A stretch of 64,000 bases of DNA, taken from the NCBI RefSeq assembly GCF_008831285.2, contig NC_045143.1:21952302-22016301 (forward strand), given 5' to 3'. Shown here one piece after another: positions 13,977-61,885 of the stretch (positions within the stretch are counted from its first letter, which is position 1; each line of letters starts with the position of its first letter). The notes beneath the pieces were generated by a model. The model was not told the DNA's origin. It did no database searches and saw only the letters and a list, made by a program, of their open reading frames with translations. The translations under genes and the position numbers were made by a program. Origin of the DNA: Nymphaea colorata (Eukaryota; Streptophyta; Magnoliopsida; Nymphaeales; Nymphaeaceae).

Positions 13977-14082
13977 CTTTTCACTAAAAGTCCCTTTTTC
14001 TCTAAAATCTCTCTTTCTCTCTTTTTCTAAAATCTTCTTCTCCCTCTCCATTTGAGTTAATACTTTCTTTTCACAAGCTTTC

Positions 14083-14124
<42 letters not shown>

Positions 14125-15001
14125 TCTTTTTTAAAAAAAAAAATCTTCTATTTTGCCATTTTAAAATCTTTCTCTCTCTTTTTCCTTGTACTCTCATATT
14201 AATGTCTTTCATCTTTTCCATTCTTTCAAATATTTTTCTCCCATGATTTGAAGTTTTAATTTCTTATTTGCCGGCTTCACCAAGTAATGATTCAATATTG
14301 CAATCATGCTTGATGGTCTACAACCCCATATCATTTTCAAAAACTTTTCATTTTTTATAAAATACTTATGACAATTTTATAAATAAAAATGAGAAACTTT
14401 GATGTATATGATGGTAGGAATGCTTTTAGATGAATGTCCTGGTAGAAATGAATTATTTCCTTCTAATCATGTAGGATCAATACATTCATACATTCACATT
14501 CACTTAACGTCACGAATGATCACAATCACATCTCTCAAAGAACTTAAGCAAGACGAGATGGAGTTCTAACTACGTAGGAACCAAATTAAAGCAAATCTCA
14601 AACCTACTTAAAGTCTTAAGGAAACACTAAAGTGGCTTCAAAAAGTGATCTTTGAAAGTTTCCAAATGATATTTGTAAATATTTCTAAATTCAAAATGTC
14701 TCAAATCAAAATGTTTTATATTCTCAAATGATTCTTTAAAACTTTCTCAAAAGCTTGAAACATCAAATTCTTTGACATTTTTTCAAAGATTACACCACAT
14801 TTAGAATGAAAAAGATGTTTAAGCCAAAATGAAATGCATCAAGGATAAGCATAGCCCTTCGATTGATTACTCCGATAAAGGCATCGGGAACGGTCAATCC
14901 TCGTACCAACGGGCGAGTCCCTTTCTCTTTCATTTAAAATAAAACCTCATTTTTTTGGAGCACTTCAAAAACTAGCCAAAAGATTTTTGGGGATGCAAAC
15001 A
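12076..15001 (+). repeat. 3' LTR of the LARD-like element (2926 bp)
   Basis: Complete LTR with TG...CA ends, preceded by a purine tract and followed by the right ATAGT duplication (15002-15006). It contains a (CT)20 tract at 13931-13971 and an (AT)n tract at about 14085-14116. A GC-richer block at 12606-12796 is missing from the left LTR. Short open frames inside it show no protein family signal. Confidence 0.9.
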
Positions 15002-22436: not shown

Positions 22437-23122
22437 TATTAAAGAAGAACCTTCAAATTTTTCCACACCAGTTAACGTCTCCAATCTGGCCAACGATAGT
22501 TATGGCAAGCAACATTCAAGCGTCTCCAATCCTTCCAAAATGGCTAATGATAATCCCGGAAAATCAAACAACAATGGAAACATCTTGAATACAATTGGAA
22601 CGCCCAAATCCAATGATGACAGCAAAAGAAAAATGCCCAAATCCAACGACAGCAAAGGAAAGATCTTGAACAGCAAAGAAGGGAATGAAGAGATTGATGA
22701 CAGCAAGAGAAAAACGCCCAAATCCAACGACAGCAAGGGAAAGATCTTGAACAACAAAGAAGAGAATGGAAAGATTGATTCCAACGATGACAGCAAGGGA
22801 AAAATGCCCAAATCCAACTCAAATGATGAGAGGACATGCGCCATCCATAAACATCAAAATCCAGCACGAGGTCTTTAACCTGAAACGGTGGAGGAAGAAA
22901 AGGAAAGAAACAAAATTATGCCTTAATTAATTTCCCCAACGTTCATAGCAGTTACAAATTGCTGTATAAATTGTAAATGATACCCATCTATCGATGTTTG
23001 AAGAAAAATAGCAAGAGGAGCTACTTTTTCACCGTGGATGTAGGTTCTTTCGAACCGAACCACGTAACTCTGTTTTTTCCTTCCTTTCTCCTTTCTCTTT
23101 ATGCTCCCCTTTTTCTTCTTTT
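22437..23122 (+). repeat. 5' LTR of the copia element
   Basis: 686 bp. It contains an internal array of 'aaatccaacgacagcaa'-type units (22600-22822), a TATA-like 'tgtataaattg' at about 22963-22973, and the 'gaaccgaaccacgta' block typical of copia U5 regions. The frame open through the array is a Ser/Asn/Lys repeat with no family signal. Confidence 0.92.
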
Positions 23123-23134
23123 TGGTATCAGAGC
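23123..23134 (+). other. Copia PBS (tRNA-iMet type)
   Basis: TGGTATCAGAGC, the standard complement of the plant initiator methionine tRNA 3' end, directly after the LTR. Confidence 0.92.
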
Positions 23135-23493
23135 ATCAAGGTTAACAGCCATGAAGAACAAACAGCGACCACCACTGGAGATCACCATCTGCTCACGTTG
23201 AAACAGGGTAACACCATCATTTTTCGCCCTTCAGTTTTTCTTTCGGCGTTGTCTGCACGAGCGATCTCCCACTGAGATATTTTACTCCTTCTATCTCCCA
23301 TCTGTTGCGAATTCAACGGTCCCTGACTCGACCAGATTCGAGATCGAATTAGGCTGAAATCGGTTGAGTACTGGTCACCGCTCCTGCTGCAACTTTCTGT
23401 TTGTGTTACCATCAACGTCTGCAAAAACAGAGTTCAGATGCTAGAAGTTGAGTGGCTTTCCTCTGTCGGTGATCAAGATTTTGGTTTGTGGCC

Positions 23494-26400
23494 ATGGCTC
23501 CTTCCTCATCAGTAGCATCATCTCCCAACACGCTCTATCCCTACCCACTGAATCTAAACGTGTCTAATTTTGTTTCCCTGAACCTGACGCACGACAATTT
23601 TTTGTTATGGAAAATGCAAATCCTGGCTCTCATTGAAAGTCAGGACATGGAGGGTTTTCTGACTGGCTTAACCCCTGCTCCACCAAGTCATATTGTCGTC
23701 CCTACTGACTCGCAACAGTTGATCTCCAATCCCAAGTTTGAATCATGGCATCAATCCGATCGCCTTATAAAAGGATGGATTACCGCTACGTTGTTTGAAA
23801 ACGTCTAAACCTTCTCTTCTCAAGAGATTTGGTCTATTCTTGTTGACGCTTTTGCCCAGGAATCCCAAGAACGGGGATTTCATCTTACTCACATGCTTAC
23901 GACATGTAAAAAGGGTAACGATGCCCTTGAAGTTTATGTCGCTAAGTTCAAAGCAATATGTGATGATTTGGCTGCCATAGGAAAGCCGGTTGGAGACAAA
24001 GAAAAAGCCTTTTGGCTTCTCCAGGGGCTGGGTAAAGGCTACGAGCCTTTTGTTATGGCTATGCTCAAGCCACCAGTTCCTTCTTACAAAGAATTGGTCT
24101 CTTTGCTGCAAAGTTTGGAAGTGAGAACAAATTTCTCAATTCTGATACCTCGCCCCAAGTTGCCTTCTATACTCAACGTGAAGGCCAAAACAGATCTCGG
24201 GGTACCTACCATTCCTCATGAGGGCGAGGACGACACAACAGAGGAGGACGTGGAGGGGGATACAACTTTAATCCCTCTCATGGAGGAGGTTACAATTCAA
24301 ACCCCTCTCGAACAGGCTACAACACAAATCCTCCTCAACTGCCAAAATTTTGATGGGGCAGCGACCTCTTCAAATTCATCCAAAGATATCATATGTCAAA
24401 TTTGCAACAAGAAAAATCACTTTGCCATGAAGTGTTACAATCAGTTTAATCATTCCTTCCAAGCAGAAAATACTACTCAAGCCCTTGCAGCTCTCACTAT
24501 TAATGACTCGCAAGATTCCGACTGGCTGGTTGATACTGGAGCAACAACACATATGACAGGAGACGCAGGTAAACTTAAAAACATTTCTCCTTATTATGGT
24601 TCTGATACAGTTATTGTTGGGAACGGGCAGCGTATCCCAATCACACACATCGGACAAGCTGATATTTTCCCAAATCTTTCTCTTAAGGATGTTCTTTATG
24701 TTCTGCGCCTCACTAAAGACCTGATTTCTGTTAGTAAATTGACTAACAATTTTCCATATGACTTTGAATTTACCTCTGATCGATGAATCCTAAAGGACAG
24801 GAGCACGGGTAGGATAATGGCAACCGGGACTGAGCAAGGTGGTCTCTATACAGTGAACAACAACAGCGATCATAAAGCTTTCTTTTCATCACGATTTCGG
24901 AGGGCAACAGAAGAGTCCTGGCATGCACGTTTGGGACATCCTCAATCTAGTGTTCTCTCTTTCCTGAAAAGCCAAAAGTATATTGATGTTTTACCTAATA
25001 GTTCTCTTTCGATTTGTGCTAGTTGTCAAATGGGAAAATCTTGCAAACTGCCTTTTATTGAAAAAGATGACATTATTTCTTTGCCACTGGAAAAGATTCA
25101 TAGTGATCTATGGGGGCCGGCACCCGTTCTTTCTCGAGAACAATATCGGTTTTACGCTACATTTGTTGATGACAATAGTCGTTTTACTTGGTTTTACCCA
25201 CTAAGACACAAATCTGACTTTTTTGAAGCCTTTGTTCATTTTCACAAAATGGTTGAATGTCAGTTTAACAGGAAGATCAAAATTTTTCAAAGTGATGGAG
25301 GCGGCGAATATACTAGCTCTCGCTTCATATCATACCTCGACAACCTAGGGATTAAACGGCAATATTCCTTCCCCAAGACGCCTGAGCAAAATGGCAGAGC
25401 GGAGCGCAAACATCACTCTATCAATGAATTGGGTCTAACATTGCTTTTTCACTCCAATTCACCAAAGCGGTTTTGGACTGACGCCTTCTCAGCTGTCGTT
25501 TTTCTGATAAACACGCTTCTCACCTCAACTTTGTGTATGAAGTCACCTTTCTCCATATTGTTTAAAAGGGTTCCTGATTATTCCAGCATGCGTATTTTTG
25601 ACAGCAGGTGCTTCCCTTATTTGAGAGGATATGCGAAGAACAAGTTTGACCCTAAATTTGTTCCATGTGTTTTTGTTGGATATAGTACACTTCATAAATG
25701 TTACAAATGCTTCGAACCAAACTCTAGACGTCTATACATATCAAGGCATGTTGTTTTTTATGAAAATTTGTTTCCCTTCAACAATCCGTCTTCTTTATAC
25801 AAAGACGACATTATGGACAGTGACTTTACATCTTTTGTTGATATGGAGACTTCAAGTGATGGAACCATGCCAACTTCAGATCACCTTGAATCTGGTTTCG
25901 GCCCAACACCAGATCCACGTCTGAATGTCTACGATGATATTCAAAACATGCCACATGCTAGATCTCTCGATACAAATGATGATTCAGCTGAGACGACACC
26001 AACCGCTCCACCAAGCTTGCATAGTTCAAATACTACAAGCATCACCAGTTCTCCATCAAACTCTATGAGAACCTAGACTATAGTAACCAGATCTATGACT
26101 CGATCAATGTCTCCGGGTAGCCGAACGATGACAACTAGAGTAATGGCGGGCATTCATAAACCTATCCCAAGTATGCCAACATTCATGTCACTTATTCTAG
26201 CATTCCCGAAGAGCCTAAAAGAGTACAACAAGCTCTAAAACATGATGGGTGGAGAGCAGCTATGGAAGAAGAAATGACTGTGTTAAGATCTAACAATACA
26301 TGGGATTTAGTTCCAAGAAAACCCCACATGAACGTTGTTGGATCTAAATGGGTTTTTAAATCTAAACTCAAACCCGAAGGGAGTCTTGATCGGCTAATGG

Positions 26401-27735
26401 CACGCCTGGTTGCCTGGGGTTTTACTCAAGTTGAAGGAATAGATTATCAAGAGACTTTCTCTCTTGTCCTTTGACCAACTACTATACGGCTTGTACTTTC
26501 TATTGCCACTATCTTCAATTGGAGCATCAAACAATTAGACATTAAAAATGCATTCTACATGGATCACTTCATGAAACAGTCTATGTCTCAACCACTAGGG
26601 TTTGAAGGTCCTGTCCTACCAGATCATGTTTGTCATCTTCAAAAGGCACTTTATGGACTCAAACAAGCGTCTAGAGCATGGTTTCAATGGTTAAGTGATT
26701 TTCTTTTCACTTATATCTTTCGGAGCTGCTATTCAGACCCATCCATGTTCATATTTCAAGAGGATAACCATTGCCTTATCCTTTTAATATATGTTGATCA
26801 TATGATTCTTACAGGCAGCTCCTCCAGCCTCATTCAGAAGTTCATATCTAAACTTAAAAAGGAGTTTCCAGTCAAAGACATGGGGCAGCTGAGCTATTTT
26901 CTTGGGATCGAAGTTTTATATACCAGCACTGGTCTTTTTCTTAATCAAGCGAAGTATGCTCATGACATTTTAGAACGACCTAAGATGCTGGATTGTAAAC
27001 CGATGAATACTCCTATGGCTACAAAACTAGATCTCCCAGACACTTCCCCTTTTTCAGATCCAACTCTCTATCGCACTATAGTTGGCACATTAAAGTACCT
27101 AACCATCACTAGACCAGAAATATCTTTCTCGGTGAATTTTATCAGCCAATTTATGCAAAGTCCAACACAAGCTCAGTTCAAAATTGCCAAACATATCCTC
27201 TGATACATCAAAGGGACTATCGATTATGGCTTCAAATTCTCTCTCAAAGCACTTTAAATTTGTATGCCTTCTCTGATGCTGATTGGGCTGGATGTCAACT
27301 CACCAAAAGATCAACGACGGGGTATTGCACTTATTTAGGAGCAAATTGCATTTCATGTAGTGCCAAGAAACAATCCACTGTTGCATGATCTAGTGCTGAT
27401 GCAGAATATCGCTTCATGGCCTCTATCGCTGCCGAATTGACATGACTCCTACAGATTCTTCGAGATATTGGCATAAAAATCACTACAACGCCTATTTTAC
27501 ATTGTGACAACATCAGCGCTATTTATCTAGCAAAGAATCCTATTTTTCACATTCGATCGAAGCACATTCAAATTGATTATCATTATGTGCGAGAGATGGC
27601 CATTTCTGGACGACTGATCACTAGGTTCATCAACTCTCAACACCAAATTGCTGACATATTCACAAAATCCTTGGGGAAAGTTCAATTTTTTGGACTTCGT
27701 GACAAACTCAACGTCATCAGCCGGTTTCGTTTGAG
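23494..27735 (+). pseudogene. Copia gag-pol polyprotein, multiply disabled
   Basis: Domains appear in copia order. Gag: 23494 onward ('LTHDNFLLWKMQILALIES'), with a TAA at 23806 and continuing in frame. CCHC knuckle: 24394-24435, intact 'CQICNKKNHFAMKC'. Protease: 'DWLVDTGATTHMT'. A TGA lies at 24784. GAG-pre-integrase: 'WHARLGHPQSS'. Integrase core: 'SDLWGPAP', 'QSDGGGEYTS' and 'PEQNGRAERKH' give D, D and E. A TAG lies at 26074 and a frameshift at about 26165. RT: 'SKWVFKSKLKPEGSLDRL', a TGA at 26472, 'KALYGLKQASRAWFQWL', and the catalytic box 'YVDHM' instead of YVDDM (His codon 26799-26801). A TGA at 27201 and a shift near 27245 follow. RNase H: 'FSDADWAGC', TGAs at 27386 and 27443, then 'SKHIQIDYHYVRE'. 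It cannot encode active enzymes. Confidence 0.93.
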
Positions 27736-27741
27736 GGGGCA
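27731..27741 (+). other. Copia polypurine tract
   Basis: TTGAGGGGGCA immediately before the right LTR start at 27742. Confidence 0.85.
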
Positions 27742-28429
27742 TATTAAAGAAGAACCTTCAAATTCTTCCACACCGTTTAACGTCTCCAATCTGGCCAACG
27801 ACAGTTATGGCAAGCAACATTCAAGCATCTCCAATCCTTCCAAAATGGCTAACGATAATCCTGGAAAATCAAACAGCAATGGAAACATCTTGACTACAAT
27901 TGGAACGCCCAAATCCAATGATGGCAGCAAAAGAAAAATGCCCAAATCCAACGACAGCAAATGAAAGATCTTGAACAGCAAAGAAGAGAATGAAGAGATT
28001 GATGACAGCAAGGGAAAAACGCCCAAATCCAACGACAGCAAGGGAAAGATCTTGAACAACAAAGAAGAGAATGGAAAGATTGATTCCAACGATGATAGCA
28101 AGGGAAAAACGCCCAAATGCAACTCAAATGATGAGAGGACATGTGCCATCCATAAACGTCAAAATCCAGCACGAGGTCTTTAACCTGAAATGGTGGGAGA
28201 AAGAAAAAGGAAAGAAACAAAATTATGCCCTAATTAATTTCCCCAACGTTTATAGCAGTTACAAATTGCTGTATAAATTGTAAATGATACCCATGTATCG
28301 ATGTGTGAAGAAAAATAGCAAGAGGAGCTACTTTTTCACCGTGGACGAAGGTTCTTTCGAACCGAACCACGTAACTCTGTTTTTTCCTTCCTTTCTCCTT
28401 TCTCTTTATGCTCCCCTTTTTCTTCTTTA
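27742..28429 (+). repeat. 3' LTR of the copia element
   Basis: 688 bp, same structure as the left copy, including the internal unit array (27905-28126). One unit carries a change (aaagg to aaatg) that closes the open frame present in the left LTR. It is followed by the AGTCC duplication. Confidence 0.92.
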
Positions 28430-34790: not shown

Positions 34791-35277
34791 AGTTCTTGAC
34801 CAAGAATAAGCATCAACTTTACATTTCTTTTATTATTCATATCTCTTTTTGTTTGCTGTCCAACTTATATATCTTCTACAAAATGATGAAAACCATGTTT
34901 TTACGTGGACATGAAGGTTAACATTACTAACTCTTTAAACCTTGATAGAGGGCATTATTAATGTCCAATGCCACAGCATTATTTCTTAAATATGCGAATT
35001 AAAGAAGGACCAAAGTTAAAAAAAGAAGCCCACAAAAAAGGCATGGCGATTAACCCGTTGAGAAAGTTGAATTGCTGGGGTCTTCCATTTCCCCCCACTT
35101 GCAGAGGAAGCAACAGTATTGTTTCTTCGTCCACTTGACTTCTCCTCCGCCACCGAACCTTACCGAGTTCCATGGCCGAAGGCCGAAGCCCTTCTTTAAT
35201 ACTTTTTCCTCATTCCCAACGTTGTTCGCAGGTCGACATTAAAGAAGAGAGAGACAAAGAGATAGTCGTCTGCCTCG
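34791..35277 (+). promoter_or_regulatory. Promoter and 5' leader of the lectin receptor kinase
   Basis: Upstream of the start codon. Two W-box-type cores are visible: TTGACC at 34796-34801 and TTGACT at 35135-35140. WRKY factors binding such sites commonly control defence-related receptor kinases, but short motifs occur by chance. The part from about 35190 ('ctttaatactttt', then 'gacattaaa.aagagagagac') is conserved upstream of the paralogue at 53371-53430, which suggests a shared promoter edge and leader. No convincing TATA box was identified. Confidence 0.4.
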
Positions 35278-37266
35278 ATGAACCTTCTCCACCTCCTGCT
35301 GCTGATTCTGGTCCTTGCCGAAAATGCAGTTTCAGCCTCTGACAGATTCATTTTCAATGGCTTCCAGCTAAAGGAACTCACCATGGATGGATCTGCAACT
35401 GTTACCTCCGAGGGCTCACTGTGCCTAAACGTCGACACCAACAGTTCGATGCCAAGTCATGCCTTCTACCCTTCACGGTTCCAAGTCAGAAACGAATCGT
35501 TTTCTTCTGCTTCTGCTGCTGATGACGATGCTAGTGGCGAGGTTCTTTCGTTCAGCACCCTTTTTGCCTTCGTCATCAATTCGACGGGCTCAACAGCAGG
35601 GGACGGGGGATTCGCCTTCGCCCTCTCTCCTACCCCCGCCATACTCGGCAGCACGGATTACCTTGGCCTCTTCAACAGCTCGAACGTCGACATTAGTTCC
35701 ACCAACCACATCTTTGCCGTTCATTTTGGAGCAGCGGCTGTAAATTCATCCTCCGTTGCCACCGCCGGAAACCTCGTCCGAATCCACATAAACAGCTCGT
35801 CTTTCCTTTCGTCTACTTCTCCTGGTTCTTACTTTGCTGTCGCTTGGATAGACTACCGAAGCGATCTCCAGCAACTGAACGTCAGCGTATCCCCCCTTGC
35901 ATATCATAACAAACCCGAGAAACCCCTTCTCTCTACCACCTTGAATCTCTCCTCTGTATTCAAGGATTTCATGTACGTCGGTTTCTCTTCTGGAGGGGCC
36001 GGAAACGCTTATGGTCGCCAATGCATCCTTGGCTGGAGCTTCAGGATCAATGGAGAAGCCCAATCCCTTGAAATATTCCAACGCCAGCGGTCATCGAAGC
36101 GGCATATAAAAATCATGGCCTGCTCCATCGCCACTGCAGCAGTCCTAGTGTCCGTGGTGTCCGCTGCCTGTTACATGTTTTGCAAGAGGAGGAAGAAGAA
36201 CGAATCAAACGAAATGGAAGGTTGGGAATTGGAGCAACCGCGGAACTTCCCTTACAAGCTACTCTCTAAAGCCACCCATAGATTCAGCAAGTCGGAGCTG
36301 CTGGGCAAAGGTGGTTTCGGCAAGGTGTACAAAGGCGTTCTGCCGGGAACTTCCATGGAGATTGCAGTGAAGAGAGTTTCCGACGACGGAAAGCAGGGGC
36401 TGAGGGAGTTCATGGCGGAGGTGTCGAGCTTGGGGAGATTGAGACACAGGAACCTTGTCCAGTTGCAGGGGTGGTGCAGGAGAAAAGACGAGCTGCTTCT
36501 CGTGTATGATTACATGCCCAACGGGAGTCTCGATAGCTTCCTGTTCAATGATCGCAAGGCCAAGGACTTGGGGTGGGAAGAGAGGTTCAAGATCCTCAAG
36601 GGGATCGCCAATGGGCTGCTGTATCTTCACGAGGGGTGGGAGCAGGTGGTGGTGCACAGGGACGTCAAGGCCAGCAACGTCCTTCTGGACGCTGAGATGA
36701 ACGGCAGGTTGGGTGATTTCGGGCTTGCGAGGTTCTACGAGCACGGCGACAACCCGCAGACGACGCGCGTGGTCGGCACGCTCGGCTACATCGCTCCGGA
36801 GATGTCCCGGTCGGGGAAGGCAACGGCCAGCGCCGATGTGTACTCTTACGGCGCGCTGCTTCTGGAGGTGGCCTCAGGGAAGAAGCCCTACGAGATGCTG
36901 GCGGCAGATCGGGAAGGAGAGATGTTGCTGGTAGAGTGGGTGCTCAAGAATTGGCAGAGAGGCCAGATCTTGAGCGCCATGGACGCGAGGCTCGAGGGCG
37001 GCTTTGTGAGGGAAGAAGCCGAGTTGGTGCTCAAGCTCGGAGTGTTGTGCTCACAGGCGGTGGCTGAAAGGAGACCCACCATGCGTCAAGTGGTTCAGTA
37101 CCTTGATGGGGATGCGTCCCTCCCCAAGGAGGTCAGCCTAAACGCCATGGCCTTGCATGATGATCTTGGATTCGATCAACTCGTGCTGTCTTATCCTGAA
37201 TCGGGGGTACTCTCCTATGACTCGAATAATACTTCCGAGCATTGGGTACCTATGTATGAGATCTGA
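35278..37266 (+). CDS. L-type lectin receptor-like kinase, intronless
   Basis: A plasma-membrane receptor kinase of the plant LecRK family, normally sensing extracellular ligands through a legume-lectin-like ectodomain and signalling through a Ser/Thr kinase. The 662-residue length and single exon are usual. Signal peptide is about residues 1-21. The lectin-like domain is about 23-263 ('FIFNGFQ', 'GDGGFAFALSP', 'YVGFSSG', 'ILGWSF'). A TM helix at about 278-300 is followed by basic 'CKRRKK'. The kinase is about 339-610, with the glycine loop 'GKGGFGKVY' (343-351), Lys365, 'HRDVK' (460-464), 'DFG' (480-482) and 'APE' (506-508), all intact; it is an RD kinase. The ectodomain is odd: where family members have V-E-F-D-T, this has 'VHFGA' (His149, Gly151), and 'NHVGIDIN' reads 'NLVRIHIN', so classic metal and sugar binding is probably lost. 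A truncated paralogue lies at 53500. The start is supported by the signal peptide. Confidence 0.95.
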   Translation: MNLLHLLLLILVLAENAVSASDRFIFNGFQLKELTMDGSATVTSEGSLCLNVDTNSSMPSHAFYPSRFQVRNESFSSASAADDDASGEVLSFSTLFAFVINSTGSTAGDGGFAFALSPTPAILGSTDYLGLFNSSNVDISSTNHIFAVHFGAAAVNSSSVATAGNLVRIHINSSSFLSSTSPGSYFAVAWIDYRSDLQQLNVSVSPLAYHNKPEKPLLSTTLNLSSVFKDFMYVGFSSGGAGNAYGRQCILGWSFRINGEAQSLEIFQRQRSSKRHIKIMACSIATAAVLVSVVSAACYMFCKRRKKNESNEMEGWELEQPRNFPYKLLSKATHRFSKSELLGKGGFGKVYKGVLPGTSMEIAVKRVSDDGKQGLREFMAEVSSLGRLRHRNLVQLQGWCRRKDELLLVYDYMPNGSLDSFLFNDRKAKDLGWEERFKILKGIANGLLYLHEGWEQVVVHRDVKASNVLLDAEMNGRLGDFGLARFYEHGDNPQTTRVVGTLGYIAPEMSRSGKATASADVYSYGALLLEVASGKKPYEMLAADREGEMLLVEWVLKNWQRGQILSAMDARLEGGFVREEAELVLKLGVLCSQAVAERRPTMRQVVQYLDGDASLPKEVSLNAMALHDDLGFDQLVLSYPESGVLSYDSNNTSEHWVPMYEI

Positions 37267-39602: not shown

Positions 39603-41747
39603 TTAAAATTTTTAGTTTCACCTATATACAAAATTTGAAAATTTATATTTTGGTTCTTGTTAAAATTTTAAAACTAAAGTTCGACCCCCTGCAACGAAAA
39701 ATTCAATACTCCACTCTTGTTCCCTATATATGCCTGCAACACCTTTAGGGCCCTTCTCTTTTTATAACCAGATTTCGCAGCTGATCACCCACCACCGGAA
39801 CAATAACTACTCCCAATTCCTAGTATCCTAATGGGTAGTGCTTAATAGCTAGCGCAAGTTGACTGACCAGTTGAAATTAATGTTTACTAAATCTTGAATC
39901 AGACTTTCTCTTTGAATTGTTCAATAGGCCTCTTCTTCTAGAATCCCCAAAAGCAATGCTCCAGCTTGCAATGTGCCCCACTGAACATTTCTGTGACATT
40001 GTCAGAATCCACTAGGCTGCTGTCACACACTGTTGGCTGTTAGTGGAGATGTCAATGGATCATAGATATGATTTTGTTTACTTTTTTGGATATTCGCATG
40101 TTTGTATTTGAATTTGGATTTAAATACAAATGGAAAAAAAAAAAAAGTCATAATCTGAATTAGAATACGAAATCGGATTTCATGATCTGAAATCCACTTA
40201 GCAGCTACCGGCTACTTTTATGGAGTCTTTGACATGCTGGCCCCTTACACCCTCGGACTTTATTTTCCCTTCATCCAGTTCAAATGTATGCTAATTAAGT
40301 GCTTCCATCCAATCCAATGTTTTATTTATAATCGTTGCTACAAATATTGGATTCTAATACGCATATGATCAGGTCTCATATCAATGTAAAAATTATATGG
40401 TTGTTCACATCGTTTTACATGTGATGTAAACCATTATGTTTCCGTTTTGAAACTTTATTATTTAAGAATTTACTTATAGATAAATTAAAATTAGTGCTCT
40501 GTTGAAATTGATCCATGAATCGAATCGGTGAAGCTGCCAATTTTCTGGATTCAGTCAAATGGATTGTTAATAGCCTAAAATTAGTTGTTATTATTATTAT
40601 TATTAGAGAAAAAATGAAAAACTATACTAAAACATATGAAAAACGTATCCGCATATGATCAGGAATGGGCCTTCTCATGACATATCATCGCAAGTATATG
40701 AACCGATCAAACACCGGTAAGTAGGAAACTATTGCGATGCTTCCTCTACAAGTGGAGAAGTCAACGTTGGTATTGTTATGAGAGAAAAAATGAAAAACCA
40801 TATTAAAACAAAAAGTATTTTAAATATTGGGAAAATAGTTACTTTTAAGTCGGGCGATCGATTTTATTCGAATCATCCGATTGAAGTCAATTTTGATAAC
40901 ACTAATATAATATCCATTCATCCGTTCTGATTGAAGTAGAAACATGAGTTTCAGAAGAACATGAAATGAAGGTGTATGGCACAAGGGTGTCTTAGAATCG
41001 TCGGCGATGTCTCAAGACTCAAATGGTAATTAACTGTTTGGGACATCTTATCTCAATCGCTCACCCCGATTCACCTTATATGGTAATTACTATGGTGTTA
41101 GTTTCCTATCTGAACTTCCCTTTTCTCCACATGTATAATGTTTAATGAAAACAAGGGTTGATTTGTGATCAACAAGTTGAAATTTTACACCTGAGGTACA
41201 CATCTCTCTTTGCCTAATCTGTGGTACAGAACCTGTTATAGAACTAAGAGTCATGCGTACTCAACTAACACTTTTTATCTCCAGAATCTTCAATATTTTT
41301 TACATTAATGCTCATTGCCGTTCTAGAATGTTTTCACATATTGAGCCTCCTGTTCATTCAATACATTACCAGCACTTCGATTTATTCACATGCTTAAAAA
41401 CTTTAATTTGTTCAATTCTTCTCTATGCTACTCCATTAGTAAAGGATTTCCAAGTCATTTGCTGGAAAAGCTGGAAAGCTCATGCTTTTGACAGAGGGGT
41501 TGTGCTTTGGGCATGACCTTTACTTCTCAATTACAAGACGTATTGTTATGGATCAAATCAATAGTTGAACAATATGGAGAAAATATATCAAAAGAGCAAT
41601 TGACATAGCACGTGTGGAAAATTAAATAGTGGCAAGGCTAATGTTCTTCACTCTGTAGTTCTGCTATTGGGATTAGCTACATTGTCGTTATCTTAAGGGC
41701 CCGTTTGATTGCCCAGAAAAATTTGGTGGAGGGGTTGAAATATGTAC

Positions 41748-41900
41748 GGGCGGGTGAAATTTCACCTGCCCGACGCAAAAACCATCAAACGGGGTGAAAT
41801 TTCACCCCGTTTACGATAAAGTGAGTAGGTGAAATTTCACCCGCTCAAAAGTCTGAGCTCACAGCTCGGACTTTCGAGCGGGTGAAATTTCACCCGCTCG
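41748..41900. repeat. Four copies of a 14-bp perfect palindrome in longer inverted repeats
   Basis: GGTGAAATTTCACC occurs at 41753-41766, 41793-41806, 41828-41841 and 41881-41894. Two copies extend to perfect 26-bp palindromes (41787-41812, outer arms AAACGG/CCGTTT; 41875-41900, outer arms CGAGCG/CGCTCG). The other two extend to 24 bp with one mismatch. A half copy follows near 41919. Confidence 0.95.
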
Positions 41901-42230
41901 ACATTTTCCTTCTGAAGGCATTTCACCCGCGCGTCTTCCTCCGCAGTCGACGATCTCCCTCACATTGGAGAATAGCTGCCTGCTCACCGTCACCGCTCTG
42001 CCATCGCCGCTCTCACCGCCGCCGCTCCGCCGTCGCCACCCTCACCGTCGCCGCTCTGCCGTCGCTGCTCAACCCTCGCCGCTCCCCTCGGGTTTCGTCT
42101 ACTTCCCCTCCTTCATCGCTGCCGCTTCCCTCATGTTCCGTTTTAACACTGACTGGTTTTGTCAATGGATCAATTCATGGGTTCGTCTTCTCTCTTGGAG
42201 ATGTGAGTGTCAAGACTCTTGAGTAGTTAA
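41901..42230 (+). other. GC-rich, CCG/CTC-repeat block inside the Pack-type element
   Basis: The block has repeats of 'ctctgccgtcgc' and 'caccgtcgccgct', and is open in more than one frame because of composition. It resembles the 5' leader or first-exon sequence of a plant gene and may be captured DNA, but no protein family can be named. It is followed by 'actgactggttttgtcaatg' and ends at about 42225. Confidence 0.45.
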
Positions 42231-42385
42231 TGGATGTTCAGTCCAACTCGGAAACTTCCCCAGAATCTGCTTCGTTTTGGACAGAGGCTGATGGCGATGA
42301 GTTTTTGTTTTTGGGGATCTTCGTTTTCTGGATCAATTAGCAGGAATTTTGTGTAATTCAGTAACTTAATTATTTTGGAAGAAAT

Positions 42386-42508
42386 ATGGCGATTGGAGAT
42401 GAATTGGGTGCTTCCAAGAAGAAATTGAAGAATGGTAACATTGATGTGCCTATCTTCAATGCTGAGAATTTGCAGAACAATATGAAAACTATCTATTACA
42501 GGTTCTTT
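42386..42508 (+). pseudogene. EMC6: Captured exon resembling ER membrane protein complex subunit 6
   Basis: From an ATG at 42386 the frame gives a short polar N-terminus, then 'FNAENLQNNMKTIYY'. It ends at an AG|GT splice-donor-like junction at about 42510. As I recall the family, plant EMC6 proteins begin with a variable polar tail, then a near-identical 'FNAENLQ.NMK.IYYSR', then two membrane helices. The match therefore covers only the first exon, and the helices are missing. EMC6 is part of the complex inserting tail-anchored and multipass proteins in the ER. Here the exon is inside a transposon with no downstream coding exon visible, so it is a captured fragment. Assignment rests on one motif, hence the moderate score. 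Confidence 0.6.
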
Positions 42509-42689
42509 TTTGAATCCCTGCGATTCTGGATGTCCTGTTTTTTTCCTTGAAGCGTGCATATTTGTTTAGATCAATTCATCAATTAGTTTCATAATATGTA
42601 GTCAGATCTGGTGTTTTCACGACGTCGTTCACAGATTTGGAGCTGAAAAATGAGAGTCAAGTTGAATGCATTTCGACCCAGGCTAATTC

Positions 42690-42895
42690 GGTTTTTCCCT
42701 TCTTGGCACAGAGGATCTCCTCCGAATGCAATGTCTGCACTTTGTGAAGCCACAGGAGCAGATAAAGCAGGTCATCAAGATCAATGACTACCAGAAGAGT
42801 CGGTTCGTTAACTGGTAGTTTCGTCCATGTTCAACACTGCTGCTGGTAAAAAAATTGCGGTTCTCGGCTTTGCATTCAAGAAAGACACAGAGAGA
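42690..42895 (+). pseudogene. UGD: Captured fragments of UDP-glucose 6-dehydrogenase
   Basis: UDP-glucose dehydrogenase oxidises UDP-glucose to UDP-glucuronate for cell-wall sugars. Three pieces of its central and C-terminal region are present, in order but in changing frames. They are 'FLAQRISS' and 'NAMSALCEATGAD' (about 42702-42762), then 'KQVIKINDYQKSRFVN' (about 42764-42812), then 'KKIAVLGFAFKKDT' (about 42848-42890). In the real enzyme, tens of residues, including the catalytic 'GFGGSCF' region, separate the first two pieces; here they are fused, so an internal deletion has occurred. A stop (Trp-TAG) follows 'SRFVN'. Plant UGD genes usually lack coding introns, so gene and cDNA origins cannot be told apart. 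Confidence 0.82.
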
Positions 42896-43040
42896 CATCA
42901 GTTCCTGGGTTAGTGACAGTGCACTGGACGAAAAGCTTGTTGGTGAATTACTTAATTTCCTTAATTTCCTGGGTTAGTGACAGTGCACTGGACGAAAAGC
43001 TTGTTGGTTTGTTGGGACCAGAGAGACATCAGTTCTTCGG
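42890..43040. repeat. Short duplicated module in the Pack-type element
   Basis: 'gtgacagtgcactggacgaa' followed by 'aagcttgttggt' occurs at 42914-42946 and again at 42976-43008. 'agagagacatcagttc' occurs at 42890-42905 and 43019-43034. The pattern is that of local template switching or slippage. Confidence 0.85.
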
Positions 43041-43818
43041 CGTCCTGAAAAATTGCCTTTTGCTTCTAGAGAGTGGACAATCTTCTGCTGATTCTGATGT
43101 TCTTTAGCACTTGAATGTATACAGTGAAGTAAAGGCAATTTTTTCTCTCTGATGTTCAACAGGTTTCAAGTAAACTGCAATTTGATTGACCTTCGTAAAC
43201 AGAAATTTGATTGACCTTCCTGTAAACTGCAGTACCAATTTCATATTATGTTAGTGTTTGCTGTATTCTCTGCTTTCATGTTGTTGCACCTTAGGTAGCC
43301 AACTAGTAACGGTTGCCTGTTAGCAAATAGCTGCGTTTTGAGTAATGGTGTGCTTTGGTTTAATACATTTTTGTCACGTGAAAATCTTCACATCAGAAAC
43401 AAAAAACTTTGTCATGGCAGTGCCTCTCTTCATATGATTCATTGGCATATAGATATGGTAAAATGCTTTATGGATCACATTTAGCTGTTACTTTTGCAAT
43501 TATATTTGGTTTGGCTAATGTTATATCATGTGAAGGATTTTGCAAGTTACTGCTTGTTGAACTGAATTAAAGCGCTGGAAGTTGAAAGTCACTTTTTTGC
43601 ACTCAACTGGGTTTTCATGCTTGATTGCAACCTCAATTCGTTGGTAAATAAATAGGCCATTCCATTGGTTGTGTGTCTAGAATTTGGTTTTAGATGACCA
43701 AAAAAATAGACCATGCTTGTCTGCACGGGTTATATAAACAAAGAGGAAATTGAGGAGGAGAAGGAAAAGAAAAACAACTACTACTAACAGTTTTAAAAAA
43801 AAATCTCTCAAATTTTGT

Positions 43819-43984
43819 ACCTTGTGCATCAAACAGGGTTAATTTTACCACGTTAAATTCTACCCTGTCATCAAACAGGGCCTCAGATTGGAAGAGGGAG
43901 AAATTTCATCATGTAAATTTTTTCAGAAAAATTTACCATGATAAATTTACCACGTTAAATTCTTCCTGTGCATCAAACGGGCCC
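43819..43984. repeat. Repeated terminus-like modules at the right end of the TIR element
   Basis: 'catcaaacaggg' occurs near 43828 and 43869, and 'catcaaacgggccc' at the end. 'ttaccacgttaaattct' precedes the second and third copies. The end therefore looks duplicated, possibly by serial nested insertion or internal slippage. Confidence 0.75.
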
Positions 43985-43987
43985 TAA

Positions 43988-44083: not shown

Positions 44084-47000
44084 CTGATAAACTTATGTCG
44101 AGACTCAATGGGGCAGACTCCTTGGATTGGCAGCATGACCCATGTGACCTTTTTTTTTTTGAAATGTTCATTACTGCTACCAATCAGTAACTCTCAATGT
44201 TCATGCCTCAAGTGGCGTTATCTGCACCAAAGATTATGTGTTCGTGGGCTTCAAAATTTCTATTATCTACAAGCCTTATGTTACTGCCAACAAAGTTTCT
44301 GCTCTCTAGGGAACTATATGAATTCCAGAATCATGATTTTTTCAGATGAAAGAGGTTCCCAATAGGATTATTTTTGCTATCATGCTGGTTTTATCTTAGG
44401 GAAAAGCATTCATCAGTATTTCCCATTAGTTCATGAAGTGGTTCATTCAACAACTTTGAGGAGAGAAACTAGTGTTACATGAAGTTTGACAAGATTTCAA
44501 TAGTATTTCTAATGATTACTATGGAATGCTACTGTTGGTCGGCAAGGAGATCCTTTCAGCAATGGGCATGGTCCTTGTCAGGACGATCCTTTTTGTTTTA
44601 GTTGTTACCGAAGTTTTTAAAAGATGATTTCAAGCAGCTATTAAGAAATATTAAATTGAATTTTCAAGCTTAGACGAAAGAGTTGTATACCTGATTCTTT
44701 GTAGGTATTGAAAAATTGGTCCATGTAAGTACCAGATAGAGTGCTTGGCTATCAAAAGGCTTACCTGCTGATAAGCATGGAAACAAATGCGTGCCAATTG
44801 GGACCCTTAATCAAGTCATAGCGCCTCCATCTATTGTTTGGGCAATCCTATATTGTGAAGGTATGCAGGGATAAACTTGATGCATTCATTAAAAAACTTT
44901 ACTGTGGAAAAAACCAAATACTCTTTCTCTCTCTCCCTCTCCCTCCTCTTTTGATATCTTTAATGTAAGCATTTCTCTTATGACCCAAAGTCCACTTCTG
45001 TTACAGGTCGTCTGCTGATAGAGACCAGACTTACTCTCTCTCTCTCTCTCTCTCCCTCTTCTTTTAATATCTTTAATGTAAGCATTTCTATTATAGCCCA
45101 AAGCCCACTTCTGTTACAGGTCGTCTGCTGATAGAGACTAGACTCTACAAGGACGAAGCTTGAAAAAGTTCATTCTGTTATAAGTGGACCTTCTCTCTAG
45201 ATTCGTCTCTTCCTTGGAAGTTATTGCCCTTGACAAATCTTGTTGTTTCTGATAAGATCTTTGACATTCACACTTTTGTTTCTTTGATGATTATTTTCTT
45301 GTTCGGTTGCTTTTCAGTTATTTTCTTTTGTTTAGTTAGTATTGAAGTCTCTCAGTTTGCTACCAATTTGTATACATGCATGTGTGCTATCTCCTTGTCA
45401 TACACAAGTTCTTTGTTATTCTGACCATGCGTACTCCTCGTGCATGTCTTCTTTTTGTACTATTACTGGTCTTGTGTTTTCATCTTTGTTACATATTTTT
45501 AGGTAAAAATCACCAAAAGTTTAGTTAATATCTTTTATGGTTCATTCTGTAATTAAAATTTCTTTTTAAAAATTCACATGAGATGTTACAAGAAAATTTC
45601 TCTTTTCCCTTCTTTTGTAATCCCTTGAGGTGATACTTTACATAAAGGGAAATAGTTCATATCCGAAGCTATGGTACCCAAAATCTGGTCTTAAAAGCAG
45701 TAAAAGGAATTTAAATTAAAATTCCTTTCATGGGCCCATTTGCAATGGTTTTACTTATTTGGTAAAGTGACAGTTTTCTTAAATAAATGCTTTTTCCTTT
45801 CTGACTTCTGTTTCCTGCATTCAATGCAGGGAATGGCCAATGGAAATAGTGGGTGATTGATTACTTGTCCACTAATCAGACCTTTATATTAAATCTACCA
45901 ACTAGAGCTCTCTCCATAAGTTCATTTGTAGGCCAATGCCAGTGCCCTAAGTGTATCAATTATGAGATTAACCCATTGAAGTAAATGCCAAATTCATTTC
46001 ATAAAACAAAAAAAAAAATTTGTTTGATCATAAGGAATGACTTGTGAAAAGATGGAGGCATGTCCTCAAAATTGTATGTCATTTTGGAAAAATCTAGTGT
46101 TAAATATCAAAGTGACGCATGTGGTGCCTCTAGATGGAGAGAAGATACAAAACAAGAAAATCAAAACAGAGCTCGGCTGTCAAGAATGTGTGCCACCTTT
46201 CATTAATACCAAGGCTACAGATAATGTATTTTTCTTCAACAATCGCTTTAGAAATAAGATGACATGAAGGATGAATTAAAGATGGTCTACTAAGACATTA
46301 TGCTGATTCGTTTGAATGGAGATCTTTTGATGAATTGCATCCATTTTTTGTATTAGATAGTCGCAATATCAGACTGAATTTGGCAAGTGATGGTTTCAAC
46401 TCATTTTGTATTTGAATACATCATACAATATATGACCTGTCATCAATATTATATATAGTTTCTACCATGGATTTGTATGAAGCAACCATACATGAATTTG
46501 TTTTTGTTAATTTCTAAGCCAATTTCTCTAGGAGTAAAGATTGACATTTATTTCCAGCCGTTATTTGATGAACTAAAATTGTTGTGAGAATTTGGTGTAG
46601 ATACTTATGATGCAAGCAAAAACTAGTTTTTCCAGCTGCATGCATCTTTATTATGAACAACAAATGATTTTCTTACTTATGAAGAATTTTCCTATTGCCA
46701 AAGTAGATTATTTTCTTAATTGTGGATTATCACATGTCCTTGTCATGTCTGGACTTGTCTCTGTAAAATTCAAGTTCTCTGCAACAGAAATAAATGTTGT
46801 AAGACATAGCACAATAAGAAGCCTAGCCAAGCTAGGGATCTATATATTAACGTACCTAATACCATATAATTTCAATTAACCCTAAAATATTACGAATTAT
46901 ATTATACATTATCAAGTAAAGATCACCTGATTCTAATTGGCCTTTTCTTTCAGTCACTGTGACATTCTTGACTGCCCTTAGTTCCTCTGCAAAAGAACAA

Positions 47001-53369: not shown

Positions 53370-53584
53370 CTTTAATACTTTTGCTTCCTTCCCATTGTTC
53401 CCAATTCGACATTAAACAAGAGAGAGACACCAGAGAAGCCGAATCCCTTAAAACTCTCACGTCTGCGGCCGCCCAAAGGCCTCCTCCATCACCACTGCAA
53501 TGGCCGCAGCCCTATTATCGACGTTGGCCGCTACTTATTACAAGTTTTGCAAGAGGAGGAAGAAGAACGATACGAACGAAATAG
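53348..53584 (+). promoter_or_regulatory. Possible upstream ORF overlapping the kinase start
   Basis: A 78-codon frame begins at 53348 and runs past the kinase ATG at 53500 in another frame. Its middle part ('EAESLK') is in the ancestral frame of the full-length gene (compare 'EAQSLE', residues 260-265). If the transcript starts upstream of 53348, this frame would reduce translation of the kinase. The transcription start is unknown. Confidence 0.35.
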
Positions 53585-56500
53585 AAAGTTGGGAGTTGGA
53601 GCAACCACAGAAATTCCCTTACAAGGTGCTCTCTAAAGCCACTCATGGATTCCAGTCGGAGCTGGTGGGTAAAGGTGGTTTCGGCAAGGTGTACAAAGGC
53701 GTCCTGCCAGGAACTTCCATGGAAGTCGCAGTGAAGAGAGTCTCCGACAACGGAAAGCAGGGGCTGAGGGAGTTCATGGCGGAGGTGTCGAGCTTGGGGA
53801 GATTGAGACACAGGAACCTTGTCCAATTGCTGGGGTGGTGCAGGAGAAAAGACGAGCTGCTTCTCGTGTATGATTACATGCCCAACGGGAGTCTCGATAG
53901 TTACCTGTTCAATGACCGGAAGGCCAAGGAGTTGGGTTGGCCAGAGAGGTTCAAGATCCTCAAGGGGATCGCCAACGGGCTGCTGTATCTTCACGAGGGG
54001 TGGGAGCAGGTGGTGGTGCACAGGGACGTCAAGGCCAGCAACGTCCTCCTGGACGCCGAGATGAATGGCAGGTTGGGCGATTTCGGGCTTGCGAGATTCT
54101 ACGAGCACGGCGACGACCCGCAAACGACGCACGTGGTCGGCACGATCGGCTACATCGCTCCGGAGATGTACCGGGCGGGGAAGGCGTCGGCCAGCGGCGA
54201 CGTGTACTCTTACGGCGCGCTGCTGCTGGAGGTGGCTTCGGGGCATAAGCCTCACAAGATTCTGGCCTCCGAGAGGGATGGAGAGATGTTGCTGTTCGAG
54301 TGGGTGCTCAAGAATTGGCAGAGCGGCCATATCTTGGCGGCCATGGACGCTAGGCTCGATGGCGGCTTTGTGAGGGAAGAAGCGGAGTTGGTGCTCAAGC
54401 TCGGAGTGTTGTGCTCACAGGCGGTGGCTGATAGGAGACCCACCATGCGTAAAGTGGTTCAGTACCTTGATAGGGATGCGTCCATCCCCAAGGAGGTGAG
54501 CCTGACCACCATGGCCTTGCAAGATTATCTTGGATTCGATCAGCTCGAGCTGTCTTACCCTGAATCGGGAATACGGTCCTACGATTCGAATACTTCCGAG
54601 TGTGTGGTGCCAATGTATGAGATCTGATGGGGATCGATCATCGCATTAATTTGCCTGATAACATGGTCCAGGTTACATTGCTGCATGCCGTATTATGGTA
54701 TATAGTTTTTTGTTCTTCTTCTTTTTTTTATGCATACTGGATTGGAGGTAGAAGGCAGACTCACTTCTGTTAGTTTGAGTATGTGGATTTCGCTTCTTTC
54801 AAGTTGACACTTGGCTGGAGGCTTATTGCTCGGTTTCGTAGCTGTGTAGCGCTGCGGCCTTGCTGGAGGGTTGGATGTAAAGGAATGGCACAAGATGGAA
54901 GGACTGATACATAGCTTGTGACTACAGGTTGTGATCTCATGACGAAGGGTAATGCTTGAAGGAAAAGAATGAACTTTTTCTATTGAAAAGATTTCTTGGT
55001 TGTGTTCTCTCTCTCTCAATCTAGTTGATCATGAGGTCATATTGAGTTATACCAGCTTGAGCTTGTTTGAGTAACGTATTGCTGGGCTCGAACTCGACTC
55101 TAGTTTTATGAGGTGAGTTCGAGCTCTACTCACTAAACCAAGTCCATACTCGACCTTGACACATTAAATAGGGATGCCAATATATCCAATTTCAATCTGA
55201 TATCCAATCGATCCAAATCCAAAAAAATCGAATATGGACAAAAAATTAATATCCAATTACGAAATCGGATCAGATTCTGATTTAATAAATGGCATCCAAT
55301 CGGATTCGAATCGGTTCATCTTTAGACAAATATTCAATATCTTATGCTATTAAATTTTGAAAATTGGCAAAATTTGGGTCAAAATTCGGATTCAGATTCA
55401 AATATAAATATAAAAATCAGATTCGGATTGTAAAATCAAATTTCATATTCAGAATATGACTTTTCTTTATTTGAATTTAAATATGAATATGTGAATATCT
55501 GAAAAGGTGGATATGTTGACATCCCAAACAGTAAAGCTTACATCAATTGTTTTATATATTTTTTTCTTTAAAAGAAAATGAAAACCACCAAAAAGGCATT
55601 AGAATTCGTAAAAAAAAGTTTCCAACAAATCTGGAAGCTAGTTGATTTTAAACGAGTTGAGTTCATGTAATCATAACTCGAGTTTTAATTCAATCTCCAG
55701 CTCAGCTCGTTTATTAAACAAGTCTAGCTCAAGACGAACTTACACAAGGAAGTTCAAATTAAGGTTTAGTTGGTTTGACTCATTGTAATTGTGAGTACCT
55801 AGCTACTTATGAGTGTGCACGTTCCATGGATTCTCAATAAGTCTTCACCGGTGTGCCGATGATGTGTAGTTATTTTATGAGGCGTCTCCTAAAATATGCA
55901 ACTAATGCACTGCGCAGCAAAGTCCTACTAGAATCAATTCACAAATGGCTATAAGATAGAAGTGAACATACATAATAATGGGCCATACATAAGATAGCAC
56001 AGATACGGAAAAAGCACGTTGAGATAAGAAAATTGGGACTCACGCTCGTGAATTTTGAAAATAACATGTTCATACTATTTGTGCTTTATGTCGTAATGCT
56101 TTCGTAATCAATGCGAGGTAATGCTAGTTTAATTAAAACAAGCGGCTGTGATGTGTTATAAAATAATGACATCAACTATCGAATCTCTGACTATCCCTCC
56201 GTATTTTTCAGAAATGGAACAGAACTGATCACTAACGAACCTCTGCACATCAAAACTACTTCCAATTCCTAATGGGTAGTGCATTATAGCTAGCCAAGTT
56301 GACTGACCAAGTTGAAATTAATGTCTACTAAATTCATGAATGAGAGGCTTTTTTTTTTTTAATTGATCAATGGGCCTCTTCTTCTAGAATCCCCAAAATC
56401 AATGCTCCAGGATGCAATGTGCCAAATTGAAAATTTCTGTCAGAACCCACTTAGCAGCTCTTGCAACAGCTGGCTGCTGGTAGGCATGCCAAACGGATTG

Positions 56501-59129: not shown

Positions 59130-60082
59130 CAAAAGATAATTAGATGGAAACTTAAGAACCAAACTAATGGGAAAAGAAAAAGAAGACTTGGAAATTAAGG
59201 GGGAAAAACGTGGAACTCATATTGATTCAGATCGGGACCGACTATTGCAATTCATAATCTGCCTGTTTATATGTGAGAAAAATAAAAATGTGAACACAGT
59301 TTTTTTTTCCAAAATTCTAAAATTAGTTTTTCTTTAACACATATATGTAAATTTGTCTAATGTAAAAAAAAAAATTAATATTCTTCTTAATCAAGTAAAT
59401 TAACTAAGAAAGAAAAATTCTTCCTCATATGGATCTTGTGGATCCATATTGTGGGTGCTCATTCAGCTCCTACGTCATTCTTTCCAAGTTAGAAAAAGGA
59501 CTTGTCTAGCACAAGTTTAGGACTTTTTATTTGTTCAAATTGCACTCAACTAAAGATTCAATTTACTTAAGAGATTCAAACATTCCATGTGAAAGATTGA
59601 ATCTGAAAAGGATTTGTACGGGTGAAATTGTGTGCCACTAGAGGTAACGGTCACATTCTCCACCTATATAAGCATCACTGCAAATAGCATAAAAAAAATG
59701 AGCTATCATGGTGCTTTTGTCATCAATGGTATGAAGTTCTAAGTAAGTGGTAATTGTCACCAATTAATATAAAGCTATGTTATAGAGTCTATGATAGCCG
59801 TAGCTTTCTATAAAGGGTGTTTGATAGCTTCATATTTGAAATCCTTATAATTTGAGAAACGTGGATTTGTGGTCAAACCCCCCTTGTAACAACCCAAAAA
59901 TCTAGTCCAGTATTGAAGATTATGAGAGATCTTGAAGGGCTTATAAGAAAATTGTTAAGAAGTTAATTGTCCTAGTTCTTAGCTTTTGTCGAGCTAAAAC
60001 TGAAACTGCTAGGAGGAAGATTGGGATCTGTCGGACCAGCAGTCTGAGCCCAAGCGTGGATTAGATTGTTATAGTGGTACCA
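59130..60082 (+). repeat. Direct repeat, copy 1 (with 60825-60935)
   Basis: Matches 60938-61880 throughout, from 'taagaaccaaactaatggga' to the TRIM-like LTR at its end. The companion block 60825-60935 matches 61886-62020, which places the two units in tandem. Confidence 0.88.
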
Positions 60083-60334
60083 AAGCACCATTCAACACTC
60101 AGACTAGGCTACCACACGTGCGGACGGGTGTGCATTAAGGAGGTAGACTGTGACACCCCAAAAGTTTAGTCTCGTATTAGATATTGTAAGAGATCTTCAA
60201 GGGCTTATAAAAGAGGTTATTAAAGTAGTTGGTTGTTATTGTCTTTAGTCTTTTTGTGGTTGAAACCAAAACTATTAGGGGGTAGGTTGGCATCCACCTG
60301 ATGCCTAAGCTTGGAAGAGGGTTGGGTCATTACA
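59885..60334 (+). mobile_element. TRIM-like miniature LTR element, plus orientation
   Basis: Two LTR-like units (59885-60073, starting TGTAACAACCC; 60149-60334, starting TGTGACACCCC and ending TTACA) flank an internal segment of about 75 bp. That segment starts with a PBS-like TGGTACCAAAGC and ends with the purine-rich 'aaggaggtagac'. LTRs of about 190 bp, a Met-type PBS, a PPT and no coding space are the definition of TRIM elements. The second LTR is itself followed by TGGTATCAAAGC, suggesting a tandem LTR-internal-LTR-internal chain. Confidence 0.72.
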
Positions 60335-60749: not shown

Positions 60750-60937
60750 CCCCCCACCTTTGTGAACTTAAATCCGACCTTTTCTCAATGCAAAGAAATG
60801 AAATAAGGATCTTAAGTGTGAAACAATCACCCCCTAATGGTTATCATATTTAAGCTGGATATTAAAATGTATAGATATTAAAAATGTTCAAGAAGATGCA
60901 GATTAGTTTATACTATTTGGATGCCATTAAGGAGGAT

Positions 60938-61880
60938 AATTAAACAGAAATTTAAGAACCAAACTAATGGGAAAAAAAAAAGAAGACTTGGAAATTAAGG
61001 GGAAAAAGTGTGGAACTCATATTGATTCAGATCGGGACTGACTATTGCAATTCATAATAGGCATGTTTATATATCAAAAAAATAAAAATGTGAACATATT
61101 TTTTTTTTCAAAATTCTAAAAATAGTTTTTTTTAAACACATATATGTAAATTTGTCTAATGTAAAAAATTTAACTTAATAATCTTCACAATCAAATGAAT
61201 TAACAAAAGATGGAAACATCTTCCTAATATGTATCTTGTGGATCCATATTGTGGGGGCTCATTCAGCTCGTACGTCAGTCTTTCCAAGTTGCAAAAAGGA
61301 GCGGCCTAGCACAAGTATAGCACCTTTTCTTTTGTTCAAATTTCACTTAACTAAAGATGCCATTTACTTGAGGGATTAAAACATTCCTTGTGGACGATTG
61401 AATCTGAAAAGGACTTGTACAGGTGAAAGTGTTCGCCACTGGAGGTAACAGTCACATTCTCCACATATATAAGCACCATTGCAAATAGCACCAAAAAATG
61501 AGCTGTGATGGTGCTTTTGTCATTGGTATGAAGTTCTAAGTAAGTGGTAATTGTCACCAATTAATGTAAACCTATGTTATAGAGTTTATGATAGCCGTAG
61601 CTTTCTATACGGGGTTGTTTGATAACCTCATATTTGGAATCCTTTGGAGTTGAGAACGGTTGATTTAATTTCAAACCCCCTTGTAACGACCCAAAAATCT
61701 AGGCCAATATTGAAGACTATGAGAGATTTTCAATGGCTTATAAGACAGTTGTTAAGTAGTTAATTGTCCTAGTTTTTAGCCTTTGTCAAGCTAGAACCGA
61801 AACTGCTAGGAGGAAGATTAGGATCCGTCAGACCTAGGGTTTGAGCCCCAGAGTGGGTAAGATTGTTATAGTGGTATCAA
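60938..61880 (+). repeat. Direct repeat, copy 2, ending in a TRIM-like LTR
   Basis: Second copy of 59130-60082. Its last part (61682-61870, starting TGTAACGACCC) is a single TRIM-type LTR followed by TGGTATCAAAC. The ~740-bp TRIM cluster found after copy 1 (60083-60824) is missing here. Confidence 0.87.
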
Positions 61881-61885
61881 ACAAA

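Follow-up and report, generated by a model that had tools for sequence, protein, structure and literature searches.

The element and its ends

The 64,000-bp stretch of the Nymphaea colorata genome analysed here (the window, C6:21952302-22016301 in a searched genome of 407.8 Mb and 783 contigs, of which the large ones, C1 to C14, measure 44.0 to 12.6 Mb) contains a transposon with terminal inverted repeats (TIRs) that carries pieces of an EMC6 gene and of a UDP-glucose dehydrogenase (UGD) gene. The element spans window positions 41697-43984 (2,288 bp). Its left TIR, GGGCCCGTTTGAT (41697..41709, plus strand), and its right TIR (43972..43984, minus strand) agree exactly over 13 bp and are bordered by a target-site duplication (TSD) of TAA. 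The left TAA (41694..41696) is read from the sequence and from the single TAA at a related empty site described below, the right one (43985..43987) from the sequence. When all exact 13-bp inverted pairs that are not of low complexity and lie at most 10 kb apart were considered, only the pair of this element had matching TTA/TAA flanks; one of 100 Markov-1 resampled windows held such a pair.

Inward of the left TIR lies a subterminal array of GGGTGAAATTTCACCC-type palindromes (41739..41912), predicted to form stable single-strand hairpins and shared with the left ends of other members of the family. It is followed by a GC-rich stretch (41913..42135, plus strand), parts of which are common to the relatives L030, L032 and L024. 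The right subterminal region (43823..43984, minus strand) is conserved in other members as well. Inner motifs resembling the ends occur at 41784, 43828 and 43870, i.e. three times in the window where 0.10 are expected. In the left end (41697-41940) the palindromes fold far more stably than shuffled sequences (z -10.5). If transcribed, these hairpins, folded here as single-stranded DNA, could supply small-RNA production.

Origin of the gene fragments

The EMC6 cargo consists of a piece upstream of the ATG (42136..42378, plus strand; 95% to L045 375-616) and a piece with the first coding exon (42370..42570, plus strand; 90% to L045 691-898), in which the exon reaches from the ATG at 42386 to 42501 and is followed by a donor GT at 42502. 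Both correspond to C3:5656774-5657297. On the same strand, 4 kb downstream of this source, the Pfam EMC6 model matches C3:5661278-5661478 with 56.8 bits (text in L054), and the exon found there resumes the protein where the captured exon ends, at SRTFLSIIGG. By these alignments, what was captured is the first coding exon, its splice donor and the beginning of the intron that follows. Because the intron start is retained, a DNA copy is favoured over a cDNA copy. Human EMC6 gave no significant match in the window, as expected if the N-terminal exon alone was captured. A second EMC6-like match in the genome (G000 C6:17229995-17230132) has two internal stop codons and is probably a decayed gene copy.

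The UGD cargo is made of three pieces on the plus strand, all of which match a gene on C8 with an intact frame of 480 codons. The first (42565..42696, 90%, donor positions 328-459) comes from about 1.2 kb upstream of the UGD ATG, the second (42698..42764, 97%, donor positions 2316-2384) covers codons ~221-243 with a small frameshifting indel, and the third (42765..42901, 96%, donor positions 2543-2679) covers codons ~297-342. Whereas the C8 gene matches at 90-97%, the second-best coding matches, on C7, reach 74-81%. Between the first and second piece 1,856 bp of donor DNA are skipped, between the second and third 158 bp (at 42764/42765); these 158 bp are retained in the relative L010. Compared with human UGDH (PDB), three collinear coding pieces were found with 56-72% identity, but in shifted frames, and thus the window UGD is a broken fragment.

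Further host DNA lies to the right. A third source, whose locus is present at C3:2.389 Mb and C8:23.424 Mb by genome match, contributed 42888..43107 (plus strand); in Pfam and PDB it matched no known family. A fourth (C1:34751540-34751804, 86% identity) contributed 43125..43413 (plus strand), and 43447..43800 is made of dispersed-repeat pieces, which match many places in the genome search. The third-source piece contains a 43-bp block twice (42902-42944 and 42966-43008, plus strand), which occurs 1 to 3 times per copy of the element: five copies contain the exact motif once, twice or three times, and the search for it missed variant forms present in L036 and L034. An explanation of the block purely as a scar of capture was rejected since its number varies between copies. 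Part of the repetition is hence a later tandem duplication, so that some of the scrambling took place after capture.

An earlier note, made from the letters of this DNA alone, had described an element bounded by matching ends and TAA duplications, with an EMC6-like first exon and its splice donor followed by internally deleted UGD fragments, and with no transposase. The exact 13-bp ends and both TAA copies bear out the first of these statements. The EMC6-like exon is matched on C3 by the opening coding exon of a gene in which Pfam recognises the following exon as EMC6, and each of the three UGD coding pieces is matched by the intact UGD gene on C8. The element has 66 listed open pieces of at least 25 amino acids; 20 of them were scanned with Pfam and gave no transposase match, in line with the note. 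The number of sources needs revision. Pieces of EMC6 and UGD are indeed present, but with 42888-43107 and 43125-43413 there are at least four sources rather than two. UGD coding DNA does begin at 42698, about 200 bp beyond the EMC6 exon, but UGD-derived DNA as such starts at about 42565 and adjoins the EMC6 intron piece directly.

Copies of the chimera and a related empty site

A genome search with window 41940-43800 as the query gave 66 matches. The whole chimera is present at seven places, including that in the window; these copies are 96-98% alike and are joined by very short internal branches. An exact 3-bp TSD was found in five of the seven, namely the window copy (TAA) and those at C11:5.97M (TTA), C11:12.1M (TCA), C6:15.5M (TAA) and C10:14.2M (TAA). 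The flanks of the seven chimeras and of L010, each 120-150 bp, showed no mutual similarity at E 0.01. The unrelated flanks of these eight copies speak against segmental duplication, which the earlier note had named as a refuting alternative.

When the two flanks of the window copy were joined, they aligned without interruption to C2:20949630-20949841, over all 221 bp with 85% identity and with a single TAA. Leftwards the similarity can be followed for 364 bp (81%), rightwards for 296 bp (78%). By this alignment, the C2 locus is a related empty site, and its one TAA means that the TAA was duplicated by the insertion. A second flank match, at C3:861185, covers the left flank only. An empty site within the window, sought in the tandem duplication of the lectin kinases, was rejected, as the similarity ends before the flank of the element. 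The other copies and the site lacking one TAA, on which the earlier note had also made its claim depend, were both found, with 36 exact 17-bp left ends and seven whole chimeras, the window copy being counted in both.

Relatives with different cargo

The left end extended to 17 bp occurs 36 times in the genome, the window included, and its reversed control not at all. The 35 other loci were examined over 5.2 kb each, and a locus was regarded as closed when an inverted end with at most three mismatches was found within 5 kb together with a matching 3-bp TSD. This was the case for 22 of them; 2000 permutations of the TSDs among the loci gave 9.8 on average and never more than 18. The TSDs of the closed relatives were TTA (10), TAA (8), TCA (2), TGA and CAA, so that TTA/TAA account for 18 of 22.

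Several relatives represent graded states of the cargo. L010 (C1:8.30M, TAA TSD) has the same EMC6 piece and keeps UGD up to donor position 3097, i.e. the C-terminal half to the stop codon. The copy at C2:6.38M keeps UGD to about 2677, including the 158 bp. Both have exactly the UGD junction 459|2316 of the window type. As both relatives keep more UGD, the window type is internally deleted relative to them, with other pieces lying beyond. L040 contains upstream EMC6 pieces only. In L013 and L014 the EMC6 exon is joined to a leucine-rich repeat (LRR) piece, which in L013 scores 32.1 bits with LRR_1, above the cut-off, and has a near-identical frame in L014; an antisense stretch in L013 resembles mTERF with 20.5 bits, under the cut-off of 23.1. 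L017 (4.2 kb, TAA TSD) carries pentatricopeptide repeats (PPR) at 2050-2508 (minus strand) as well as inner end-like regions and is perhaps composite. The variety of cargo among these relatives (LRR, PPR, UGD) indicates that gene capture recurs in this family.

In L010, L013 and L014 the EMC6 piece terminates at donor base 903 or 904. Moreover, there are eight alignment columns in which the 11 compared element copies agree (gaps being allowed in at most two) and differ from the EMC6 gene. A tentative interpretation, to which we give somewhat less than even odds, is that a single EMC6 capture founded the lineage and that the second cargo, UGD in L010 and LRR in L013/L014, was then exchanged. 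New host DNA would then perhaps have entered repeatedly at the border of the piece captured first. Against a single capture it must be said that the eight shared columns cannot be polarised without an outgroup, and that overall identity does not discriminate, the identity of L010 with the gene being 92.8% and that with L013 and L014 89.6-90.5%. The shared endpoint could possibly also be caused by a break hotspot in a T-rich run. A lineage of this kind, if true, would amount to a machine for stepwise exon shuffling, the steps of which are preserved within one genome.

Superfamily assignment and transposase

The first 11 bases of the end are those of the maize ZmPIFa TIR, of the type GGGYCYGTTTG (Table 2 in PMC6327408), and of the melon AndroPIF TIR (PMC11161486). 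L024 shares the left end, closes on the right with an inverted end that has two mismatches, is flanked by a TAA TSD and contains a DDE_Tnp_4 piece at 3287-3553 (minus strand; 37.9 bits, cut-off 24.8). The ZmPIFa/AndroPIF-like end together with this piece leads us to infer a PIF/Harbinger transposase acting in trans. The earlier assignment to a Harbinger-like superfamily, which had been derived from TIR and TSD, gains support from L024. A 60-residue open piece beside the L024 transposase, considered as a candidate for the second open reading frame of PIF/Harbinger elements (with a Myb/SANT domain), had no match in Pfam.

Other superfamilies were considered and rejected. Mutator elements, to which the Pack-MULEs belong, have a TSD of about 9 bp, whereas the flanks here, GTTATCTTAA and TAAGGTATTT, share the TAA alone at the site. 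CACTA does not fit as the ends start with GGGCCC, and hAT does not fit as there is no 8-bp TSD. What is found here, host gene fragments between TIRs in several copies (seven), is what characterises Pack-TYPE elements.

How the element arose

Taken together, the element is in our estimation (probability about 95%) a non-autonomous Pack-PIF of the PIF/Harbinger superfamily, which acquired host DNA stepwise and was then multiplied by transposition. The TSDs, the empty site and the unrelated flanks demonstrate past movement only. In the mechanism that we propose, a PIF/Harbinger transposase would recognise in trans the ends and the subterminal repeats and insert the element mostly at TTA/TAA; host DNA would enter through DNA repair with template switching, and internal deletions would shorten the cargo afterwards. 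In this order of events, EMC6 would have been captured first and UGD joined to it; the cargo would then have lost internal DNA and gained further pieces before the element spread to seven copies.

Some observations weigh against this reading. Thirteen of the 35 other loci have no inverted end with matching TSD within 5 kb, five of them no candidate end at all, and in two of the seven chimeras (L034 and L015, at C10:1.27M and C2:26.5M) the right end is degraded and the TSD missing. The transposase of L024 is a broken remnant, and a comparison of the 36 exact-end loci with the listed transposase places (150 DDE_Tnp_4 loci scored of 307 candidates) identified no intact autonomous partner with these ends. 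Maize PIF has an extended nine-base target preference. It is not evident here: by eye, four of nine positions fit the consensus, and three of these are the TTA. Finally, the 39-residue EMC6 piece alone had no EMC6 match in Pfam or PDB.

The most serious alternative concerns the way in which the host DNA was taken up. Two adjacent insertions resembling miniature inverted-repeat transposable elements (MITEs) could have been mobilised together with the host DNA between them. Such a tandem-insertion model, put forward for Pack-CACTA and since widened to include other superfamilies, is the one favoured in PMC8903248. The inner end-like motifs near both ends (41784, 43828, 43870) would agree with it, although those on the right side are wrongly oriented for a lost left end. 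Bracketing at a single locus is nevertheless insufficient for a cargo in which UGD joins donor positions 459 and 2316 with 1.86 kb skipped, and in which EMC6 stems from C3 and UGD from C8. Neither 3.0 kb at the EMC6 source nor 3.2 kb at the UGD source contained a match to the family ends. We therefore regard simple bracketing as unlikely; multiple rounds of bracketing with deletions afterwards may have occurred. Two features favour template-switching repair over single bracketing: non-contiguous pieces of the same gene have been joined, and the source loci are on different chromosomes. A few matching bases were noted at some capture junctions, by eye and with no chance test. For animal Pack-TIRs, PMC8277862 explains capture through template switching and the filling of gaps; many of the breakpoints show microhomology.

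It is very improbable that the element yields a regulatory RNA, or that an EMC6-UGD chimera is functional as a transcript or peptide. Both the ATG of EMC6 and its splice donor are retained, and with an acceptor-like site at 42711/42712 an in-frame EMC6-UGD fusion of 63 residues is predicted. However, the UGD frames are broken, and the predicted fusion is kept in only three of the seven copies (window, L037 and C6:15.5M), frameshifted in three and without the searched acceptor in L015, so that it was rejected as a conserved product. Judged from the sequence, these broken gene pieces probably serve no function at the protein level.

Barely credible, finally, are ordinary segmental duplicates or pseudogenes lying by chance between two unrelated MITEs: each end region does recur elsewhere with different interiors, but the seven copies share ends and interior as a unit, with unrelated flanks and an exact TSD in five, and the empty site formed on C2 by the joined flanks, like the shared boundaries, contradicts this explanation.

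Surroundings in the window

The element lies between tandem copies of a lectin receptor kinase, one at 35266-37266 with lectin and kinase domains, another at 53452-54627, whose listed frame contains just the kinase and whose alignment leaves out the lectin part. A Ty1-copia element at 22437-28428 is bounded by direct repeats (22437-23121 and 27742-28428) of 96% identity, which enclose gag, integrase and reverse transcriptase domains. Direct repeats of 2.2 kb (7275-9510 and 12797-15001, 83% alike) are possibly the long terminal repeats of an old element. A direct repeat of 950 bp occurs at 59135-60084 and 60935-61881 (86% alike), with more inverted copies nearby, and tandem duplications were found at 62599-62923 (165 bp, 98%) and 44919-45144 (113 bp, 92%).

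Comparison with known systems

The element can be compared with several groups of TIR elements that carry host DNA. Pack-MULEs have Mutator ends and a TSD of about 9 bp, in contrast to the 3-bp TSD and PIF-type ends found here. They resemble the window element in being TIR elements with host gene fragments (PMC8903248, PMC2528002). The Pack-TIRs of animals occur in other organisms and are mostly described as single copy, unlike the chimera in the window, which has seven copies (PMC8277862); the word 'Harbinger' does not occur in the main text of that paper.

Closer are the PIF-type elements of plants. A 2008 study described PIF elements of grapevine that contain host exons and introns (PMC2528002); Pifvine-3 carries sequence identical to host exons and introns, but consists of long members with a captured 5' region, whereas the window element gave no transposase match. 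The Pack-PIFs of maize and rice, described in 2022 by Gisby and Catoni, have like the window element PIF/Harbinger-type ends, host gene fragments and multiple copies, and most have TTA/TAA TSDs (PMC8903248). In maize cluster 18 of that study, a subgroup of four elements contains fragments of two genes, of 163 bp and 58 bp. The view of the earlier note that two-gene capture by a Harbinger-like element is far less documented than Pack-MULEs is weakened by this published case. In the literature collection that was searched, Pack-PIF-type names were found in the 2022 paper alone; a Nymphaea Pack-TYPE paper was not among the matches listed, which is not a proper negative.

The kind of element is thus already known as Pack-PIF, and it is the evidence for the present member that is unusually complete. 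Compared with the maize and rice Pack-PIFs of PMC8903248, the window element, which comes from another plant, has a longer cargo and at least four sources, and both its sources and the graded states of its cargo are visible in one genome. Since the sources, the longer relatives, the chimera in its final form with several copies and a related empty site can all be read there, the order of events can be tested. The Nymphaea case also extends gene capture by PIF/Harbinger elements from the grasses and grapevine of the cited papers to an angiosperm lineage that diverged early.

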